From Parvularia atlantis (Eukaryota > Opisthokonta > Rotosphaerida): DNA of 37,564 nt. This document shows, in pieces, positions 14,542 to 26,864 of this stretch. Numbering within the stretch: the first letter of the stretch is position 1; each line of letters opens with the position of its first letter. Under the pieces are notes generated by a model. The model worked only from the letters and a program-made list of their open reading frames with translations. It did no database searches and was not told where the DNA came from. The position numbers were made by a program, and so were the translations under genes. The stretch lies in NCBI GenBank assembly GCA_943704415.1, contig CALSCO010002039.1:1-37564 (forward strand), given 5' to 3'.

Positions 14542-17500
14542 TCAGACACGCGCCGCCGGCTGCGACGCGATCTGCCACAGCAGCGGCGTGCCGGCCGCCG
14601 ACAGTCGCGCGCGGGCGTGGAGCTCGGGCGCGGGCGGGTGGCCGTCGAGGAAGCGCGCGAGCGGGAGGTGCAAGTCATCGGCCGTGTGCGGGAACGTGTG
14701 CGCGAGCTCGGCCAGCTCGGTCCAGAACGCCGTGCGCGTGTCGGCGGGGAAGCCTGACTGCAGGTGGAATAGCACGACCGCGCCAAAAAAGCGGTCGCCG
14801 TACGACGACGACGCGTACTGCCGCAGCAGCTCCAGGAACAGCTGGTGATGGGCGATCGAGCGCAGGCGCAGCGGCACGGCGGTCGCGACGGCGCCCGGGG
14901 CGATCGCGTCCCATAGCGTGCGCACGAGCCGCGCCACCTCGTCGTCGTGGTAGACCGGCTCGATCTCGCCAATGAGAAACACGCGCACGAGGTGCGACAG
15001 CTGCAGGCCGGCGTCCACCGCGGCCAGGGCGTCCGGCGCGTGCTCGCGCAAAAACGTGAGCAGGCGCAGGCACGCGCGCACGTCGTCCACGCTCGCCGCC
15101 TTGAGCAGCGGCGCAAACATCCAATCAGCGCCCGCCGTCGACGTCGCCGGTGCCAGCGCAGCCGCCGTGTCGGCCGGTAAGACGCTGCGCAGCCACGGCG
15201 TCGTGGCGGCACGGTCGCGCACCATGAGCGCGCACACGACGGCCACGCGCAGGTCCGGGCTGCTGCTCGTGCGCGCGCGGCGCAGCCACGCCAGCCATAG
15301 CGGCACAAGCTGGCACTCGAGCTGGCGGTGGCGCGGCACGTGCGCCAACTCGCGGAAGAAGACGCGCACGCTCGCCTGCACCGTGCTGTCGTCCAGCGCG
15401 CCCGCCACAGCCACGACGCACAGCCGCGTGCTCAGCGCAAGCTGCGCGCGTGCGCTCGCCAGAGCCGCCGCCGAGTAGGAGCCCGGCAGCGACGCCAGCT
15501 CGTCCAGCACGGGCGCAGCAAAGTCGACACGCTGAGCCAGCGCCGTCCCGTCCAGCTCGGGCACGTCGGGCTCGACTGTGCGGCCGTGATGCGCCAGCGC
15601 GGCACGCAGCACCGGCGACGCGCTCACGCCGCGCCACTCGCCGGCCTCGCACGCAGCCGTCAGCAGCAGCTCGTAAACGGGCATGCTCTTGCCGTGCTCG
15701 ACGTACGCGTGCAGCACCCTGCCGGCGATGTCAGCGCAACAGCGATACCGCAGCGGCAGCGGCACCGCACCACAGGAACGCAGTCAGGCTCGCGTCGCCA
15801 GCGCCCGGCAGCCACTGCAGCAGCTGGGCGTAGGTGTCGGTGAGGATCTCGGCGCCGAGGCCGTGCAGCGCAAAAGCGCGCCACAGCAGCAACGTGTCCG
15901 TGCGCACGGCCGACTCACGCAGCAGGAAGCGTAGCACCACGTCGAGCACGCCGTCGCGCGTGAATAACAGCTCGGCGGATGCGCGCGGGCCGTGCGCAAG
16001 CGTTGTCAGCAGCCACAGCGTCCACGTGCGGTGCGTCTCGGTCGCGGCCGGCAGCGCCTCGGCGGCGGGCGGCCACGGCACCTCGAGGAACATGCGCCGC
16101 AGCGTGCCGATCAGCCGCGCGTGCTGCTGTACGAGCTTCTCGGCGCTGGAGCGGTGACGCGCGACACGCAGCAGCATCGCGAGGCACGGCCCGACCACGT
16201 CCGGCTGCGCAGGCGCGACGCGGTCCAGCAGGTGCTCGAAGCGGTCGAGCAGGCTCATGCGCTCGACCAGCGCCGCGACGAGGTCACGCTGCGCCAGAAG
16301 CGGGTCCTCGAGCGTCGCGCGCTCCTTCGACGTCAGCGGCAACGCGACCTCGGCGGGCACCGGCGCGTGGCCGCCAGGGAGCAGCAGGCGCTCATGCAGC
16401 AGCGCGTCTTCGTCCGTGCTCGCAACGAGTTTGGCCATCTGCCAGTGCGTGCGCGCGCAGCGTGTGAGCGGTGCGTAGGGCGCGGCATGACACAGGACGC
16501 ACCGCGTGCGTCGCCTGCACGAGCACGGTCTGGTGCGCGTCGTCCATCGCCGTGCGCAGGTACAGCACCGCGTTCATGTCCTCGAGCGCCGTCAACAGCT
16601 CGGCGCGCAGGTCCTCGGCCACGTCGCCGTGCTTGGCGTTGGCCGCGAGCGTCCCAAGCAGCTTAATCATCAGCGCCCGCTGCGCCGGCAGCGCGCTACG
16701 TGACAGGTGCAGCACCTCGCCAAGCGTGTAGCCGGCCTCGTCGGGATCGTCGCCGTGGTGGTGCAGCCCGAGTGACGGGTCCACATCCGTGCCCGGCGGG
16801 ACCACGTGCCCGTCAAAGTCGAAGCGCACGCGCGCCAGCCGCGGATGCTGCTCGCGCAGGACCACGATCGCCTGCGGCGTGCCCTGCGCATCGGCCTCGG
16901 CGCTACCCTTGCCGGCCGCGGCCGCCGGCTGCGTGATCCACGCGAGCTTGTCGCTCTCGACGTCGCCGGGCGCGAACAGCTTCGTGTGGCCCGGCACAAG
17001 CCGCTCGAGCACGGCCGTCTCGGGCTTGACCTGCGGTGGTGGCACCGCTGCCTTGCCGTCGCCACGCCGCTCGAGCAGACGTGCGAGTATCTCCGGGCGC
17101 ATCTGGCGGCGCAGCTCGGTGTGCGCCTCGGCGATCTCCTCGGGCGACATGCGCTCGAGCTTGGCCTGATTCTCGCGCGCGATCTGCCCGCGCTCGTCGG
17201 CCGAGAGCACGGCGCCGGGCTCGATGGCGGGCGCAGGCGCAGCGGGCGTGCGGCGCGCCGCAAACGACTGCTCGCTGCGATGGCGCGCCTCCGGGAACGC
17301 GCCGTGCTGGCCGGGCGTGTGCGCTTCGGTCTGCACAACGGGCGGCTGCGTCACGGTGCGCTCGACCACGACGTCGCGCATCACGGCAGGGCCACTCGGC
17401 GGATGCGGCATCGTCACCGTCGTCGCCTGCTGCTGCTGCTGGGCGCGCTGGCGTGCGAAGAGCGACGGCTGCTTGGCGCTGCCGCTGTTTGCAGACGCCC

Positions 17501-17675
17501 GCGCATCGACAGCAGGCGCCGTCGCCCGCGCATCGCCGCCGACCCGCACGACGCGCGCCGCCGGCCGCTCGCCGCCCACGCCCCTGTCGCGCAGGAACCG
17601 CGCCTGGTACGCCAGCAGCCCGGCCTCGTCCTCCACGTCGACGTCCTCGACGCTGGGCCGTTTCCACGTGGCCAT
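14542..17675 (-). CDS. RPAP1: RPAP1, RNA polymerase II-associated protein 1
   Basis: RPAP1 (IYO/MINIYO in plants) helps assemble and import RNA polymerase II. Three exons, 16503-17675, 15771-16438 and 14542-15718, join in phase to 1005 residues. The N-terminal part has the RPAP1_N signature (IARENQAKLERMSPEEIAEA, then LRRQMRPEILARLLERR). Next comes the RPAP1_C block (LARVRFDFDGHVVPPGTDVD, LHHHGDDPDEAGYTLGEV, LHLSRSALPAQRALMIKLLG). The rest is a long helical solenoid ending WQIASQPAARV, as in the family. The N-terminal 100 residues are low-complexity with a Gln run (RAQQQQQA). The gene shares a 62-bp head-to-head gap with the TPR gene. Confidence 0.93.
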
Positions 17676-17737
17676 CGCTTATGCTTGATGTGTACGACAC
17701 GGTCAGGGTACAGAAGACTCGAGAAGGGCAGACAATA
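17676..17737. promoter_or_regulatory. 62-bp bidirectional promoter, RPAP1 / TPR
   Basis: Only 62 bp separate the two start codons (17675 on minus, 17738 on plus), so core promoters and both 5' leaders must overlap each other or the coding sequences. The gap is richer in A and T than its flanks. I see no clear TATA box or named factor site. Confidence 0.55.
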
Positions 17738-20700
17738 ATGGCCGACGGCGTGGACGCGGCTGCCGCGGCCCTCGGCCTCACGCCGGCCGTCTACCACCAG
17801 ACCGTGCGGCAGCAGTGGGCGCCGTGGTGCGAGCGGCTCGAGGCGGCGCTGCTGCGTGACGCGCGCCGCATGGAGGCGCTGGAGCAGGACGCGCGCGACC
17901 ACGCCGCCGAGAGCCAGCGCGCAACGGCGCAGACGCAGGAGGCGCAAGAGCGCGAGCGCGCGGCGCACGAGCGCCACGAGGCCGAGGCCGCGCGCCACAC
18001 GGAGCAGGTCACCAAACTCGGTGCGCCACGTGGCGACGGTTCGCGTGCGGCGCGGCTGAGGGCGCGTCGACGTCGGCAGCGGCGGCCGTCGCCGACAAGG
18101 ACGCGACGATCGCGCGGCTGCAGGCGGCGCAGGCGGCGCGCGAGCGGGACGCGGCGGCGCACGAGGGCGACACGCGCGACACGCTGCGGCTGCTCGCGAG
18201 CACGCAGCAGGCGCTCGACCGGCTGCAGGGTGCGCGCTTCGCGCAGAGGAGTCAGCGCGGGCGGGGCAGCGATGCTGACCGCGGGCGATGTGCCGCGCGC
18301 AGACGAGCTCAGGATGACCGCGCACAAGCTGCAGGAGAGTGTCGAGTCGGAGAACAAGCTGCGCACGCGCGTTGCCGAGCTCGAGAGCAGCCTCCTGACG
18401 GAGCAGGTGCGCGCGTGCTCTACTCGTCGTACTGCGATGGCCTCACACCAGCGCGACGCGCCACAGCTCAAGAACACGCAGCGCGCACAGGAGACCGAGA
18501 TGCTCAATCAGCAGATCCAGTGGCTTAACCGCGAGCTGCAGTCGCGCGCGGACGAGTACGCCGAGTACCGCCGCACCAAGGCACGCGCCGCTCGCCATCC
18601 GTTTCGCGCGCGCAGCTCACCACTCTGCGCACGGCAGTCGGAGGTGATCGCCAAGCTGCAGCGCGACAACGACGAGCTGACGGCGCGCGTCGAGACGCTG
18701 GAGCGCGAGCGCAAGCGTGCGAGCGAGGCCGCGGAGACGGCGACTGTCGAGACGCACCAGGCGCTGGCCAAGCTGCGCGAGGTCAGCACTCTTGCTGCGC
18801 ACCATTGCCACACACTCAACCTCTGCGTGCGCGCGTGCCTCTAGGCCAAGGACGAGCTCAGCCGCAGCGAGGAGCTGTTCAAGGCCGAGATGGGCTCGCA
18901 GCAGCGTCTAGCCGCGATCTACGAGGAGGACGCGAGCAGCGCGCGCGCCCGCCTGGCCGAGATGACCGAGGAGTACCGCGAGCTCGTGCGCACCATCGAG
19001 ACGCTCAAGGAGCAGCTGCGCGAGGCCGAGCGGCACGCGGCGGCCGTCGAGGCGAACGCCCAGACGCAGCACGACGAGAACGAGCGCACGGTCCGCCGCC
19101 TGCAGGAGGAGCTGTCGCGCGCCAACGCACTGCTGTCGGAGGCCAAGGCGAACGAGGTGCGCGTGCGCCGCTGCGCGTGTGGCAGTGAGCCTCACAGAGG
19201 CGCCAGGACATGGTCTCGGTGCTGTCGCCCACCGCCGCAGCCGCCGTCGGCATGCAGCGCAGCGGCAAGACGTTCACGCAGGTCTACTCGGAGTACATCA
19301 CGACGCGGGACGACCTCACGCGCGTCACGAGCGAGCGCGACCGCCTGCAGCAAGCGCTGACGCAGATGGCCGACGAGATTGAGCAGCAGGCGCCGCAGCT
19401 GCAGAAGGAGCGCGAGGCGTACGGCGACGCGCTGCGCCAGATCGAGGCGCTCAACGGCAAGCTCGCGCAGGCTGCAGAGCGCGAGCGCGTGCACAGCCGC
19501 CAGGTGCGAGCGACGTGGCCTCACTGCCTTGTGCCCGCGGCTGACGTACGCCTTTGCTCAGGCGGCCGTGTTGAAGGACGACCTTGAGGCGGCGCAGCAG
19601 GAGATTGCGGCGCTGCGGCAGGGTGCGCCTGCGGAGGCGCGACAGCGGTGCACGCTGACGTCGGTGCTGGCAGAGTCACGCGACCTCAGCCGCCAGGTGC
19701 AGACGCTGCTGCGCGAGGTGGACGCGGCGGCGCTCGGCTTCAGCAACTGGCGCACGGTGCCGGACCTGGACAACGAGGACGCGAGCGAGGCCAGCCGCGT
19801 GGTCACCACCCGCCTGGTGCCGTTCAGCAGCGTGCAGGTGCGCGTTGCATCCGTCGCGTTATCTGTGTGGCTGATGCGCAACGTGCCCCGTCGCCGCAGG
19901 AGCTGCAGCAGCGCAACATTGAGCTGTTGCGCGTCGTGCGCGAGCTGAGCGAGCAGTCGGACGTGGCCGAGCGCGCGTCGTTTGCGCGCGCTGAGAGCGA
20001 GGCACGGCGGCTGTACGAAGACGCCGTGGCGCAGATCGAGGAGCTCAAGGCAGCGCGCGAGCGACAGCAGACTATGTGCGCCGTCGCGCCCCATGCACGT
20101 TTGCTGCTGATGCGCTGTGCAGCGTTGAGAGCATCGTGCGCCAGCGCGACTTGTACCACGACATGGTCACCAAGTTCCAGCAGGTGCGCTGCTGGAACAA
20201 CGCCAGGTGTGAACGCGCGCACCAATCGCTCGTGGCGCAGGAGCAGAGCAAGGAGGTCGGCGCGGCCTCGGCGCAGGAGGGCGGGCTGCTCGAGCAGCTG
20301 CAAAAGGCGCAGGGCGAGGTGCAGGACTTGCGGGTGCGTGCACGCGTGCCAGCCGTCGCCGTGCCGCCCTGACCGCGCCGCGGCGATGCAGACGCGCCTG
20401 GACGACTACAAGGCGCAGAGCGAGAAGCTGGTGGTGGCACTGCGGCAAGAGTCGGACAAGTGGCAGCACGAGCTGCTCGAACAGCGCATCCTCGTCGCCA
20501 AGACCCGCTCCGAGGCCGACTATCTGGCCGAGAAGCTGCAGATCGCCACGCGCACGTATGACGGGCTTAAGCAGGAGCACACGCAGCTGCTCGAGCAGTC
20601 GGCCAAGTACTCGGCGCTGCTGCTGCAGCACCAGAGCCAGCTGCGCGAACAGGGCGAGACGGCGGCGCAGGTCAAGGGCGACCTCGAGCGCGCCAGCAAC

Positions 20701-23700
20701 ACCGTCGTGCACCTGCGCGCCGAGAACCAGCTGCTGAAGGAGGCCGACGCGCGGCACCAGCAGCTGCAGGCGGTCTGGCAGGGCGAGCGCACAAAGCACG
20801 CCGAGTCGCTCCATGCGATGCAGGCGCTGCTGTCACATGCGCGCGCCGAGGCGGCGCAGGCGCAGTCGCGCATGTCGGGCCTGCTGCAGACCGTGCAGTC
20901 ATCGCTGTGCGTGCCTCGGGTGTGCGCACGCAAACGCATGCTGACCGAGCGCGCGCGCACGTATGCGCAGCGACAACACCAACGCCCAGCTCAAGGAGAT
21001 CAGCGAGCGCGAGGCTGCGCTCGTGCGCCGCCACGACCTGGAGCTGCAGCAGTACCGCGAGAAGGTCGATAAGCTGGTGCGCGCGCGGGGCGCGAGGTTG
21101 CCGCGTGCTCGTTCGCTCACGTGGCTCGCACACAGACGACCGACTACTTCCGCGAGCGCGAGGTCAGCGCACAGGTGCAGAGCGCTCATGAGGCGCTGGT
21201 GAAGGCGCACGAGGACGTCAAAACGCAGCTGGCCAAGAGCGAGGCGTTGACGGCGAGCATGATCAAGGCGCGCATGGCGCACACGCAGCAGCAGTGGGAG
21301 GAGGAGGCCAGTGCGTGCGCCCTTGGCCGGTGCTGGTGTAGGTGCGGGCTCATGAGCGGCCCGCCCACGACAGCGGCCAAGGTCAAGGCGGCCGAGGGCG
21401 AGCGCGATGCGGTCCAGGCACAGCTGGTGCAGGCGCAGGCCGAGCTGGCGCAGCGGGTGAATGACGTGGCGCAGTTCAAGGTGCGCGCTGCCCTGCCAGA
21501 GGCGCGCCGGTCGCTGAGCCGTCGACGCGGCGCGCAGTCGATCGCCGCGAGCAACGAGGCCGCGCTGGCAGATCTGACGCGCGCGTTTGACGAGTACAAG
21601 GCGCTGGCTGAGCCGCAGCTGAGCTCGTTCCGGGTGCGGCGGCGCACGCCTGGACACGCTGCACTTTGTAGCTGACGGGTCTGTGCGCAGGAGGAGCGGC
21701 GACAGCTTGTGGACAAGAACAACGACCTCGCCACGCGCCTCAACGACACTCTTGCCGACTTGGTTCACGAGCAGGAGCGCGCCGACGGGCTAGAGTGCGT
21801 ACGTGCGCCGCTCGCCGTGCGGCGTCTCACGCGTCGCGGCAGGGAAAAGTGCCAGGCTGCGACGGCCGAGGCGCAGCGGCTTCTGCAGACGTTGGCAGCA
21901 GCCGAGCAGCAGGTGTGCCGCAGTGTGAGCCGTCGGGTGCGGTCGCTGACGCCGTGCGCGCCGCGGCAGCACGCGGGCCTGATCGCGCAGATGCGCGACG
22001 AGTACAAGCGCATGGCCACGCAGGCCGACGAGAATCAGACCAAGTACCAGCGCGAGGTGGTGCTGCACGCGGCGGATCTCGAGGCGACGCGCAACGCGCA
22101 GGAGCGGGCGCGCCGGCTGGAGGAGACGGTTGTCGCGACGCAGGTGCGCGCGCGGTCGCGCACCTGCGCGACTGCAAGTGCTGAACGCGCGCCCGCAGCA
22201 ACTGTTGGAGAACGAGCAGCAGTTGCACCAGCAGGACAGCAAGGCGTGGGAGCACCAGCGCGCGCAGCTCGAGCGCAACGAGCGCGAGCTGACGATGCGG
22301 TGCGCCGTTGCCCGATGCCGCCGTGCTGCGCTCATGTTGCGCGTTCCAGGTGTGCCGAGCTTGATGAGCAATGCAAGTTGCTGCAGAGCCAGCTCGAGGG
22401 CGCGCTCAACGCGCGGCTGGGCGAGCCGTCCGGGACGCTGCAGTGCGTTGCGCCGCTTTGCCGTGGCCAGCGGACGTCTGACCGCGAGAGTGTCCGCTTT
22501 CAGGTCGCCTGGTGACCGCGAGCGGAGCACGGCCGAGCTGCTCGAGCTTGTGCGGTTCCTGCGGCGCGAGAAGGACACGCTCGAGCTCAAGCTGGACGTG
22601 AGCAAGCAGGAAGCGGCGCGCCTGCGCGGGCATGCTGAGGCGCTGCAGCGCTCGGTCGACGAGGCGCGGCTCCTGCTCGAGGAGGAGCGCAAGCGCGCGC
22701 GCGAGGCCACGGGCACGGCGGCGCGGCATCAGGAGATGCTGCAGCAGATCAAGGAGCTCAACCTGCTGCGCGAGTCCAACACGGCTCTGCGCGACGACGT
22801 CAACCGGCGCGGCGCGACGATCGGAGAGCTGCAGCGGCGCATCCAGGAGCTCGAGCGTGAGCAGGAGCCGCTGCGGCAGACGGTGCAGCAGCAGCAGGCG
22901 GCGCTCGAGGTGGCGACGCAGACACAAGCCATGTTGCAGGAGGACAGCCGCCGGTGGAAGACGCGCGTACAACAGCTGCTGGACCGGCACGAGCGCATCG
23001 ACCCCGAGCTGCACACGCGCGTGCTGACCGAGCGCGACGACGCCCTGCAGACGATCCAGCAGGTGCGCTAGCGCGGGCTGCGCGCATATCGCTGACTGTT
23101 GGGGGGTGTGCAGCTGCAGGAGCAGGTGCGCACGATGCAGAGCGCCCACACGGCCAAGATCGACGACCACCTGAAGGGTCTGGACGACTTTGTGCGTCGT
23201 CGTTGCTGCGCGCGCGGTCCGCAGCTGATGCGCCCTTGGACCACGCAGGAGAGGAAGCGCACGGAGCTCGCCGAGCGCTTCCGCCAGATGCGCGCAGAGC
23301 TGCAGCGCGTGACGGTTAGCGTCGTGCGGAAGGGCTGCTGTGTCGCTGACGGGTTGTCGAGCAGAATCTGCTGCAGCGGTCGGACGCGAGTCGCGCTGTG
23401 CTCGAGCAGCAGGTGCAAACGTTGCAGACACAGTCAGCCTCGGTGCGCGTGGGCGTCATCAACACCGCGGTCATTGACGCTGTGCCAGCACGAGAAGGAG
23501 CGTGAGGAGCTGACCAAGCGTATCGCGACGCTCGAGGAGGACCTGTCGGCGAACAAGCGCACGAGCGAGAACGACCAGGTGTGCTCGCCGGCCGTCTGCT
23601 GTGTGCCGCTCGCTCATCGCTTGTCGCAGCGCTCGCACACGCTCTCGCGCCGCGCGCTCGAGGCGTCGCGCCAGGAGACGAATGACGCGCGGCAGCTGCG

Positions 23701-24677
23701 CGACAAGGCTCTGGCGGACCTCGCCGAGGCGCGCAAGGCGAGCGAGGTGCGGCCGGCAGACTGCTGTCAAGCGTGCCGAGCTGACGCGCCGCGCGCAGGC
23801 CCTGCAGGCGCAGATCGCGACGATGCAGCAGCAGCTCCTGGAGGCCAACGACAAGCTGGCGCAGCAGGAGCTTGAGGTCAAGCGGCTGCGCTTCCGTGGC
23901 CAGCGCTTCACGCCGGACGAGCTGGCGCGCCTCAAGCAGCAGTTTGCGATCAGCCAGCACCCGGACCGCAACGTCGTGGCTGCGCTTGCCGCGGAAATGT
24001 GCCCGGACCCGCTGCTCATCGATACGGCGCGCATCCGCATCGAGACGTGGTTCGCGAATGGCCGCACGAAGCGCCAGGCCACGCCGGCCGGGGAGGCACC
24101 AGCAGCGCCCGCTGCCGAGCCTGCACTCGCGCCTGCGCCCGCACTTGCACCCGCATCCGCACCCGCACCCGCACCTGCACCAGCACCTGCGCCGGCACAA
24201 GCGCCACTGACGCCTGCCGCTCCCGTGCGCGTGGCGCCGCCGGCTGCGGAGCCCGCCGCTACCCCTGGGAAGCGCGCTCGTGAGGACGACGCCGCCCCCG
24301 CGCCCGCGCCCGAGCCTGCTGTTGCGACGACGCCGGCATTTTTGCCCGTGCAGCCGGCCGCTGCTGCTGTCGCGGCACGCCCGACGCTGCCGGTGGCCGC
24401 GCCTTCCGAGCCCGTTGTCGCGCCGAGCAAGCGTCCGCGTGAGGAGGAGCCGACGGCGCCCGCCGCACCCGTCGCGTCTGCCCCGCCTGCGACCATTACG
24501 CTCCGCCGGCCAGCAGAGCTCGCTACGACAATCACGCTCACCACCGCGGCGCCCAAGAAGATCCGCCTGAGCGTGCCGCAGAACGAGAACCCCAACATCA
24601 TCCGGCGTGCGGGCTCGGCGCAGTCCACGAGCGGCTCGCCGACCGCTGCCGTGGCTCCTATGCCCGCACCCGTCGTT

Positions 24678-24710
<33 letters not shown>

Positions 24711-25688
24711 CCCGTCACAGTGCCCGAGCAGCAGCCCGAGCAGCCGACCGAGCAGCCGACCGAGCAGCAGCCTGAACAGCAGCCGATCGAGCAGCAGCCT
24801 GAACAGCAGCCGATCGAGCAGCAGCCCGAGGCACGCGAGCCCGAGGTGCACGAGGCCGCACCTAGCGAGCCCACGACCGCGCCCGCGCACGAGCCCGAGG
24901 TGCAGGAGCCGATGGAGGCAGAGGCGCCCGCCGCAGAAGCGCCCGTCGAGATCAAGGTTGAGCCGATGGAGACGGGCGACGGCGAGCCGTCGGTGGCGAT
25001 CGAGATGGAGGCCGAGCCGGCGAGCGAGACGGGTGAGCAGTCGATGGAGACCGCCGCGGGCACGCCGACGGTCGGCGATGAGATGGAGACGGCCGGCGAG
25101 GCAGACAGCGGGACCGAGATGGCCGTCGAGGGCCCGCCGGCCGAGGAGCAGCCCGAGCAGTCAGAGGCGCCGGAGATGGAGGAGGAGCTGGCGCGCGCCG
25201 AGGAGCCTGAGCACGAGACCGTGGGCGAGGAGGAGCCTGCCGAGGCGGAGCAGGATCAGCCCGAGGTCGAGCAGCCCGAGGTCGAGCAGCCCGAGGTCGA
25301 GACGCACGAGCAGGAGCAGCCCGAGGCCGAGACCGAGCCGCAGGAGCACGAGGAGGAGCCGCAGCAGCACGAGGCGGTCGAGGAGGAGCAGCTGCAGGAC
25401 GCGGGCGACGGCGGCGAGCCGGCCGAGGAGAAGCGGCTGGACGAGCCTGAGACCGCGGCCGAGGGCGAGCCTGAGCCCGAAACCGCAGCCGAGCCCGAGC
25501 CCGAGGCCGAAGCAGAGGCGGAGCCTGAGCACGAGGGCGAGCAAGCGGAGGTGGCGCTGCCAAGCGACGACGAGGGCGAGGGCGAGGGCGATCCGGCGGA
25601 GGCCGAGGGCGCCACCGACCAGCAGCCACCAGAGGAGCAGCCGCCGGGCGAGGAGCCTGCGCGCGACGACGTGGTCGCGCTGGACTAG
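17738..25688 (+). CDS. TPR: TPR/Mlp/Megator nuclear-basket nucleoporin, with an added homeodomain-like segment
   Basis: Long coiled-coil protein of the nuclear pore basket. It starts MADGVDAAAAALGLTPAVYH at 17738 and is built from more than 20 short-intron exons. The family hallmark at 19210-19500 is nearly diagnostic: VLSPTAAAAVGMQRSGKTFT, QVYSEYITTRDDL, LTQMADEIEQQAPQLQKERE. EELQQ-type RNIELLRVVRELSE follows at about 19915. Heptad-rich exons run to about 23890. The last large exon (from about 23800) carries coiled coil, a homeodomain-like fold (23895-24077), an Ala/Pro-rich part with two basic KR-x-RE patches, a Gln/Glu repeat and a Glu-rich acidic tail ending ARDDVVALD. An acidic disordered tail is typical of TPR; the homeodomain is not. 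All introns fit the local pattern, e.g. about 23750-23799. Confidence 0.9.
23895..24077 (+). other. Homeodomain-like helix-turn-helix in the TPR gene
   Basis: The frame reads RGQRFTPDELARLKQQF, then HPDRNVVAALAAEM, and then IRIETWFANGRTKRQ. Aligned to the 60-residue homeodomain, the F at position 8, L16, F20, P26, L34-A35, I45, W48, F49, N51 and R53 all agree. There are about seven extra residues between helix 2 and helix 3 (PDPLLID region), a place where HNF1-type homeodomains also carry an insertion. N51 and R53, the key DNA-contact and structural residues, are kept. The preceding coiled coil (LLEANDKLAQQELEVKRLRF) runs straight into it in the same exon. Confidence 0.75.
24682..24830 (+). 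repeat. Coding low-complexity repeats in the TPR tail
   Basis: A hexamer run encodes (VP)n at about 24682-24715. It is followed by repeats encoding EQQPEQQPIEQQPEQQP at about 24725-24830. Both lie in the disordered tail after the homeodomain-like segment and look like replication-slippage expansions kept in frame. Confidence 0.85.
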
Positions 25689-25816: not shown

Positions 25817-26514
25817 TCACATGCTGGCGAAGCGCTGCGTCCACTCGCGCGCTGTGCGCCGACGTGGGCGTCAGCCGCGCGTGCGCGCCACTGCGGCGAT
25901 GGGCCGCGCACCCGTCTGCAACGCCAGCTTCTCATTCTCCTTCCACGCGTTGGCGACGTCGTTGGCGAGCGGGTCGTCTGGGTTGGGCGCGGAGAGCAGC
26001 GCCTGGATCGACAGGAGGACCGTCCGGATCTGGAGGGCGGGGCTCCACTTTTCTGTGGGTCGAGGCGCGGCGATCAGTGCCGACGGACGGATGCGGACGA
26101 GGCGCGCCTGAGAGGATGTCGAGGCAGATGCGCCCGAGCTTGTCGATGTTGGGGTGGTAGATCTTGGTCAGGAAGCGGACCTTGGGCGGGGCCATGGGGT
26201 AGTCGTCGGGCAGGAAGAGCTCGAGCTTGAACGTGCCGCCTGACGGCGACTTCTCAGCGGCTCAAGCACAGAGAGCAGCAGCAAGGGACGCACCCTCGTA
26301 GGGGCTCGACTGCGGCCCGGCGATGAGCACCTCAAAGTACCGCAGGTTGTCCTCGTGCGGCGTGGCCGAGATGCCCGGCGGCGCCTCCTTCGTCAGCCGC
26401 TCCGTCTCCTGCGACGCGGCGCGGCGTGGCGCGGCACGCGTGGGCTGCGTGCGGCACAAACACACGCGCGGCGCGCCGCACCTTGAGGATGCGCTTGGGC
26501 ACTGCCGAGGCCAT
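25817..26514 (-). CDS. UBE2N: UBC13/UBE2N ubiquitin-conjugating enzyme E2
   Basis: E2 that, with a UEV partner, builds Lys63-linked ubiquitin chains in DNA damage tolerance and signalling. Five exons, 26482-26514, 26294-26408, 26108-26239, 25912-26052 and 25817-25851, give 151 residues; human UBE2N has 152. Key blocks: [37 protein letters not shown], the HPN motif in [17 protein letters not shown] with the active Cys, [33 protein letters not shown] and the end [14 protein letters not shown] at the exon 3/4 joint is read as SEKW where most UBC13 have KDKW. That joint (26053-26107) needs a GC-AG intron. The final exon is only 35 nt. Confidence 0.96.
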
Positions 26515-26864
26515 TGGCGCGAGTTGGGCGTCGGTCTGCGGGTGAGGCGCGTGGCGTGAGCGCGTGGCGTGAGCGCAAGGACGGCGCGGCGGCGGAGGAA
26601 GAGGAGGAGTGGAGGAGCTGACGAGGCGCGACGAGACGACCAACATAACTTTGTATTGCTAATTCATACCTGTACAAGGACGTCTTCTCTGCCCGGCACA
26701 GGTGGCGTGCGCTGTCGCGCCCTGCGGGCGAGGCTGAACCCCTGCGAGCCACGCAGGTCGGACACGAGGGAGCGGGCGCAAACTGTCGCCCCGGCCGACG
26801 AGCTCAGCGCGCGGCCGCACGAACCACGTGACAGTTTGCGGCGATCGAGCGACAGGCGACAGAC
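26515..26864. promoter_or_regulatory. Divergent promoter region, UBC13 / ZC3H14
   Basis: This 350-bp gap separates the starts at 26514 (-) and 26865 (+). It contains an AT-rich patch at about 26642-26668 (CATAACTTTGTATTGC), an E-box CACGTGAC at 26825-26832, and purine-rich repeats near 26590-26620. No further gene is evident. Confidence 0.5.

Follow-up and report, generated by a model that had tools for sequence, protein, structure and literature searches.

Nuclear-basket proteins of the TPR/Mlp family (TPR in metazoa, Mlp1 and Mlp2 in yeast, Megator in Drosophila) typically end in an acidic C-terminal tail and are thought to act via adaptors, and the way in which pores capture genes and telomeres is debated. 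According to PMC10636164, TPR is the major structural part of the basket, its coiled coil permits homo-oligomers, and yeast Mlp1/2 are required for the correct position of telomeres; in PMC4339684, Mlp1 is reported as the anchor of GAL1 at the pore. Here we analyse a stretch of 37,564 nucleotides from Parvularia atlantis (hereafter, the window), in which one gene resembles these proteins in matching the family models PF25481, PF25785 and PF07926 and in having a long coiled coil followed by an acidic tail, but differs from them in carrying a predicted homeodomain between the coiled coil and the tail. We know of no TPR, Mlp or Megator family member with a homeodomain, and a literature search that covered few subscription papers found no TPR-homeodomain protein.

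In leukaemia fusions of the NUP98-HOXA9 type, a nucleoporin part is joined to a homeodomain. Such fusions differ from the gene described here in being somatic and oncogenic rather than germline, and in involving a nucleoporin other than TPR. The trypanosome protein NUP92 bears an extra BRCT domain, and to our knowledge neither NUP92 nor its companion NUP110 has a homeodomain. These two proteins of a distant lineage are suggested counterparts of Mlp1 and Mlp2 in PMC11825100, and the BRCT domain of NUP92 is not found in passages of that paper or of PMC5333908. HOXA9 is named beside fusion nucleoporins in PMC10636164. In engineered yeast, a Nup1-LexA protein is used to drive a single telomere that carries LexA sites to the pore, as described in PMC6952416; it resembles the present case in placing a DNA-binding-type domain on a nuclear-basket protein, but it is man-made and built on Nup1 rather than on TPR/Mlp. 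The same paper reports that its main phenotype is copied by truncation of the Nup1 C-terminus. DNA binding was therefore not needed for that phenotype, which warns that a basket-borne domain need not act via DNA.

Results

The gene at 17738-25688 (+ strand) runs from an ATG to a stop through 29 exons and encodes 2147 aa, the only stop being at its end. The earlier note on this DNA had taken it for a TPR protein, and three Pfam models of the family bear this out with scores over their cut-offs. PF25481 (Nucleoprot-TPR, cut-off 27) matches at 18470-18736 (+; aa 197-266 of the corrected model), a stretch that is split by a probable GC-AG intron at 18581-18637. It reaches 48.7 bits when the first 640 aa of the corrected model are searched and 33.2 bits in a single open frame, but 26.2 bits, slightly less than the cut-off, when the GC-AG intron is left in. 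PF25785 (TPR domain, cut-off 27) matches at 19568-19971 (+; aa 490-586 of the corrected model) with 74.9 bits and E 7.8e-21 on the 28-exon protein and with 77.0 bits on the same 640 aa of the corrected model. PF07926 (TPR_MLP1_2, cut-off 36) matches at 21856-22398 (+; aa 1045-1171 of the corrected model) with 50.4 bits and E 2.8e-13 on the 28-exon spliced protein. The order of domains along the protein is hence PF25481, PF25785, PF07926 and homeodomain.

When the genome was searched exon by exon, PF25481 gave one match at E<=0.01, which is this gene. The best exon-wise PF07926 match also fell in the gene and two weaker ones fell elsewhere, all three below the cut-off; since weak PF07926 matches also turned up in 5 of the 14 prokaryotic genomes used as controls, such exon-wise matches carry little weight alone. 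An LSPTAA stretch pointed out in the earlier note resembles human TPR. A PDB sequence search with the N-terminal 602 aa of the 28-exon model gave no match at E<=0.001, and the single NCBIfam match (E 0.17) is meaningless. On the strength of the three profile matches, the predicted product of 17738-25688 is a TPR/Mlp-type nuclear-basket protein, the single one detected in the genome.

The spliced model came from a dynamic-programming script, which placed 34 introns, and from subsequent hand curation, in which 7 introns were dropped, one acceptor was shifted from 18850 to 18844 and the GC-AG intron at 18581-18637 was added. Five of the dropped introns lay in the last exon (24050-24095, 24201-24272, 24280-24353, 24433-24516 and 24607-24720); the codon model had been trained on Q/E-rich coiled coil and penalises the P/A-rich tail, and in our judgement its tail introns are therefore not to be trusted. 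The first of these, 24050-24095, would cut recognition helix 3 of the homeodomain and scores 5.4 bits. The other two were 19219-19257, which would remove the LSPTAA stretch, and 22350-22388, which was preceded by an exon of zero length. Splice scores ranged from -3.6 to 9.8 bits for the 7 dropped introns, whereas 25 of the 27 kept introns score at least 11.1 bits and the remaining two 0.5 and 4.3 bits. The added GC-AG intron has a low splice score (4.8 bits), but it lies inside the PF25481 region and is supported by the rise of that profile's score from 26.2 to 48.7 bits on its removal, so that 18581-18637 is a probable GC-AG intron.

The 27 GT-AG introns are 40-64 nt long and uniform in their signals, with G as the fifth base in all 27, a CAG acceptor in 26 and a GTGCG donor in 24. 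Splicing is required for an open frame at 18 of them; the other 9 could stay in the transcript without introducing a stop or shifting the frame and thus have the splice consensus alone in their support. The gene has about one intron per 170 coding bases between 17738 and 23798, and the window is about 70% GC. The intron before the homeodomain exon (23747-23798, +; 52 nt, donor GTGCGG, acceptor GCGCAG) has a leave-one-out splice score of 15.0 bits, compared with a median of 14.2 bits for the 27 introns. This predicted intron, which links the homeodomain exon with the coiled-coil exons upstream, agrees with the splice consensus of the gene; if it is left unspliced, the upstream frame runs into a stop at 23873 and does not reach the domain. 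Among GT-AG introns 35-110 nt long whose donor lies in 23802-24077, the best reaches 10.6 bits, and 25 of the 27 kept introns score higher.

The homeodomain segment at 23895-24077 (+; aa 1551-1611 of the final 2147-aa model) matches PF00046, has three predicted helices and is translated from 61 codons with no stop as RGQRFTPDELARLKQQFAISQHPDRNVVAALAAEMCPDPLLIDTARIRIETWFANGRTKRQ. With numbering from F8, every homeodomain residue that the earlier note had listed is found (F8, L16, F20, P26, L34-A35, I45, W48, F49, N51 and R53); K55 is also kept, and position 50 is A. The same note had counted about seven extra residues between helices 2 and 3, and by count from F8 these are CPDPLLI, after L34-A35. 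The PF00046 match likewise spans 51 profile positions against 58 residues, that is, 7 extra, and the alignments of Pax6 and PHOX2B to the domain contain 7-residue gaps. With this insert between helices 2 and 3 the segment departs from the standard 60-residue homeodomain layout, and it lacks the 3 extra residues that TALE homeodomains have between their first two helices, the spacing from F20 to P26 being standard. Further departures are G at position 5, so that R5 is missing, and T at core position 40; T also occupies positions 47 and 54.

A profile search of this translation, which the earlier note had proposed as a check, was run with Pfam and returned the homeodomain. Against a PF00046 cut-off of 22.9 bits, the isolated segment scores 33.0 bits (E 5.4e-8), the stop-to-stop frame 23514-25688 scores 27.1 bits, the spliced protein 26.8 bits (E 4.7e-6), and the domain 31.4 bits (E 2.6e-6) when all six frames of the 16.25-Mb genome are searched. 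None of ten scrambled controls of the domain (9 shuffled and 1 reversed) matched any Pfam family at E<=1, and the homeodomain match is thus more than chance. Genome-wide, PF00046 reported 5 matches, all above the cut-off, among which 23895-24077 scores lowest. The four other homeodomains lie on contigs C431, C489, C86 and C509, and their recognition helices read VQVWFQNRR or VLIWFQNRR in three cases and KQVHHWFTNKR in the one on C489.

At E<=10 the domain matches 25 PDB sequences, each of which is named as a homeodomain protein, although every match is weak (best E 0.058). PHOX2B, Pax6, engrailed, ALX4 and MATalpha2 are among the best sequence and fold matches, and the engrailed Q50A variant 1du0, which shares A50, is among the matches as well. 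The domain is like the paired, engrailed and MATalpha2 homeodomains, which provide its best matches in both sequence and fold and whose WF.N.R recognition helix it keeps, but it is unlike them in its 7-residue insert, in the lack of R5 and in its position inside a 2147-aa nucleoporin instead of a transcription factor. In the homeodomains of HNF1 and HOT1 (HMBOX1), too, the stretch from helix 2 to helix 3 is lengthened, and the extra residues found here sit at the same place; the fold matches to these proteins are weak, however (probability 0.38 for HNF-1A and 0.60 for 4j19), no HNF1 or HOT1 chain occurs among the 25 PDB sequences matched at E<=10, and the HNF1 insert is far longer than the seven residues in 23895-24077. 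As judged from its residues and profile scores, 23895-24077 encodes a divergent homeodomain that we assign to no named homeodomain class.

Two structural models were predicted with AlphaFold2 without an alignment. Model 1, which covers the coil end and the domain (23802-24143; mean pLDDT 62.7), has helices at residues 2-32, corresponding to the coiled-coil part, and then at 38-48, 56-66 and 70-92; model 2, which covers the domain alone (23880-24101; mean pLDDT 64.4), has three helices too. In a Foldseek search against the PDB, the best 50 of 77 matches of model 1 are all homeodomain or POU/homeodomain entries by title, including ALX4, Pitx2, BARHL2, engrailed and MATalpha2, with a top probability of 0.99 and a best E of 0.17. 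The entry 4j19, a telomere-repeat binder that we take to be HOT1, ranks 42nd for model 1 with a probability of 0.60. For model 2, homeodomain entries make up 6 of the 31 matches and unrelated folds the others, and its top match, HNF-1A, is weak (probability 0.38, E 1.3). Neither model had a PDB match at E<=0.001. Structure prediction, likewise suggested in the earlier note, thus gives the three helices, with homeodomains heading the matches of model 1, but at low confidence and with weak matches for model 2. Helix 3 is long in both models (23 and 22 residues, with pLDDT in the 60s), so that the insert seems to extend its N-terminal end; the models give only a hint that it does.

The last exon (23799-25688, +; 1890 nt) comprises the end of the coiled coil, the homeodomain, a P/A-rich linker, the acidic tail and the stop. 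Its first 29 residues, ALQAQIATMQQQLLEANDKLAQQELEVKR (23799-23885, +), form a heptad run that ends three residues before the homeodomain. L, I, V, M or F occupies 6 of the 8 a/d positions in this run (71 of 10000 shuffles were as good), or 7 of 8 when A is counted too (356 of 10000). Heptads were scored from aa 1381 on, coil elsewhere being judged by composition, and the 28-residue windows upstream of the last run (starts at aa 1479-1507 in 28-exon numbering) are heptad-poor, with 0.12-0.38 of a/d positions occupied. The domain is followed by the P/A-rich stretch (24078-24827, +; 250 aa; P 0.24, A 0.25), which is probably disordered and contains KRAR and KRPR clusters that we take to be an NLS-like motif, and then by the acidic tail with the stop codon (24828-25688, +; 286 aa, 36% D+E, net charge -98). 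With an acidic tail beyond the homeodomain, TPR-like features lie on both sides of the domain. It had been claimed that the coiled coil, the domain and the tail share an exon and a frame; this holds for the last coil stretch and for the tail, whereas the part before that stretch is heptad-poor. GC3 is 0.93 in the coiled coil, 0.89 in the domain and 0.83 in the tail, so that the domain takes the middle value. Two antisense frames across this region (23316-25160 and 23471-25255, - strand; 614 and 594 codons) had no Pfam match at E<=0.001 and were set aside as by-products of GC-rich coding.

The upstream divergent neighbour is part of an RPAP1 gene (16392-17678, -), with a further RPAP1 stretch at 14542-15783 and matches to PF08620 (83.8 bits), PF08621 (45.3 bits) and PF25766 (73.6 bits). 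The start codons of RPAP1 (17675, by reading the sequence) and TPR (17738) are separated by only 62 bp (17676-17737), which implies that promoters in this genome can be tiny. The downstream convergent neighbour encodes a ubiquitin-conjugating enzyme (E2; 25932-26663, -), in which PF00179 scores 69.8 bits over 25932-26261, while its 25.9 bits over 26262-26663 fall short of the cut-off of 27. Elsewhere, the genome has one Fungal_trans match and four Zn_clus matches, all over their cut-offs, which give it a fungus-like character. A 19-base SSU rRNA pattern had no match, and PF10211 matched neither this genome nor the control genomes and is thus uninformative. On contig C399 a Zn_clus match lies about 1 kb from the Fungal_trans match on the same strand, and the pair is a probable fungal zinc-cluster transcription factor. 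A search for relatives produced 23 pattern matches in viral contigs and 56 in prokaryotic genomes, with 0 confirmed in either set, as expected for a eukaryotic protein.

Discussion

We consider it very probable that 17738-25688 is one gene, encoding a TPR/Mlp protein that, in this one genome, has gained a homeodomain at the junction of the coiled-coil rod and the acidic tail. The domain, its frame and its place in a TPR-family protein can be read directly from the DNA sequence. The predicted domain arrangement is surprising in a known family, and a TPR/Mlp protein with a homeodomain appears to be new.

How such a domain might work is suggested by its position. TPR proteins self-associate via their coiled coil, which would bring two homeodomains side by side at the end of the rod, with each N-terminal arm continuing directly from the final heptads. 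The recognition helices, with A50, N51, R53 and K55, could then bind DNA, and chromatin would be held against the nuclear basket without an adaptor protein. The dimer geometry, the DNA binding and the tethering are what we infer from the arrangement. That N51, R53 and K55 are kept suggests that DNA contact has been selected for. However, given that R5 is lost, that T is found at positions 40, 47 and 54 and that an insert precedes helix 3, affinity and specificity may be low, and the loss of R5, T40 and the insert may mean a weaker or altered DNA specificity. The whole chain, from a fusion in one gene through paired homeodomains and DNA contact to chromatin held at the basket, seems to us evenly poised between being right and being wrong. 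We put forward more tentatively, at somewhat short of an even chance, that the basket of this organism has a built-in, paired DNA-binding homeodomain that would serve as an adaptor-free chromatin tether, for genes or telomeres, at every basket-bearing pore.

A genuine fusion could also have a role that does not involve DNA. Some homeodomains bind RNA or proteins, and the homeodomain fold of this TPR might serve to bind proteins or RNA, or to cap the coil, rather than to bind DNA sequence-specifically. The loss of R5, the T at position 40 and the 7-residue insert all depart from the DNA-binding consensus, and the domain scores lowest among the five homeodomains of the genome, which would agree with such a role. 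Nevertheless, N51, R53, K55 and W48-F49 are kept, and in a domain that no longer contacts DNA one would expect drift at N51 and R53. We regard such a role as unlikely.

It might also be argued that the homeodomain belongs to a different product of the same locus, namely a short transcription factor in which the homeodomain is followed by an acidic activation tail, made from a transcript that starts inside the TPR gene, in which case TPR itself may end earlier. An exon-internal promoter is conceivable in a genome so compact that 62 bp separate the starts of TPR and RPAP1, the last exon has an in-frame ATG upstream of the domain, and the TPR rod could naturally end at the weak heptads that precede the last run. 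What makes this rather improbable is the intron at 23747-23798, which matches the consensus of the gene well and without whose splicing the upstream frame would stop at 23873 and leave a TPR without its acidic tail, together with the heptad run, which stays in frame and ends just three residues short of the domain.

A recent non-functional insertion into a tolerant part of TPR, in which the domain does nothing, would be in line with the low profile score, the insert and the occurrence in one genome. It is distinctly improbable in view of the named core and recognition-helix residues, which are intact, and of the GC3 of the domain (0.89), which lies between those of the coil (0.93) and the tail (0.83). 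Finally, an artefact, in which a homeobox gene and the TPR gene are wrongly joined in the contig or the domain is partly spliced out, might be suspected in a draft assembly of 616 contigs whose raw automatic model spliced the domain at 24050-24095, but it is highly improbable, as a misjoin would need to be in frame within one exon, between the heptads and the domain, and as the intron 24050-24095 scores 5.4 bits and the best alternative (donor in 23802-24077) 10.6 bits, less than 25 of the 27 curated introns.

If, as we favour, the homeodomain is part of the TPR/Mlp protein and contacts DNA, a natural TPR with a DNA-binding domain at the junction of rod and tail would allow the capture of chromatin by nuclear pores, on which opinion is divided, to be tested directly, namely by removing the domain or N51 and following chromatin at the pores. 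Such a protein would also represent a new route by which a nucleoporin acquires a transcription-factor domain.
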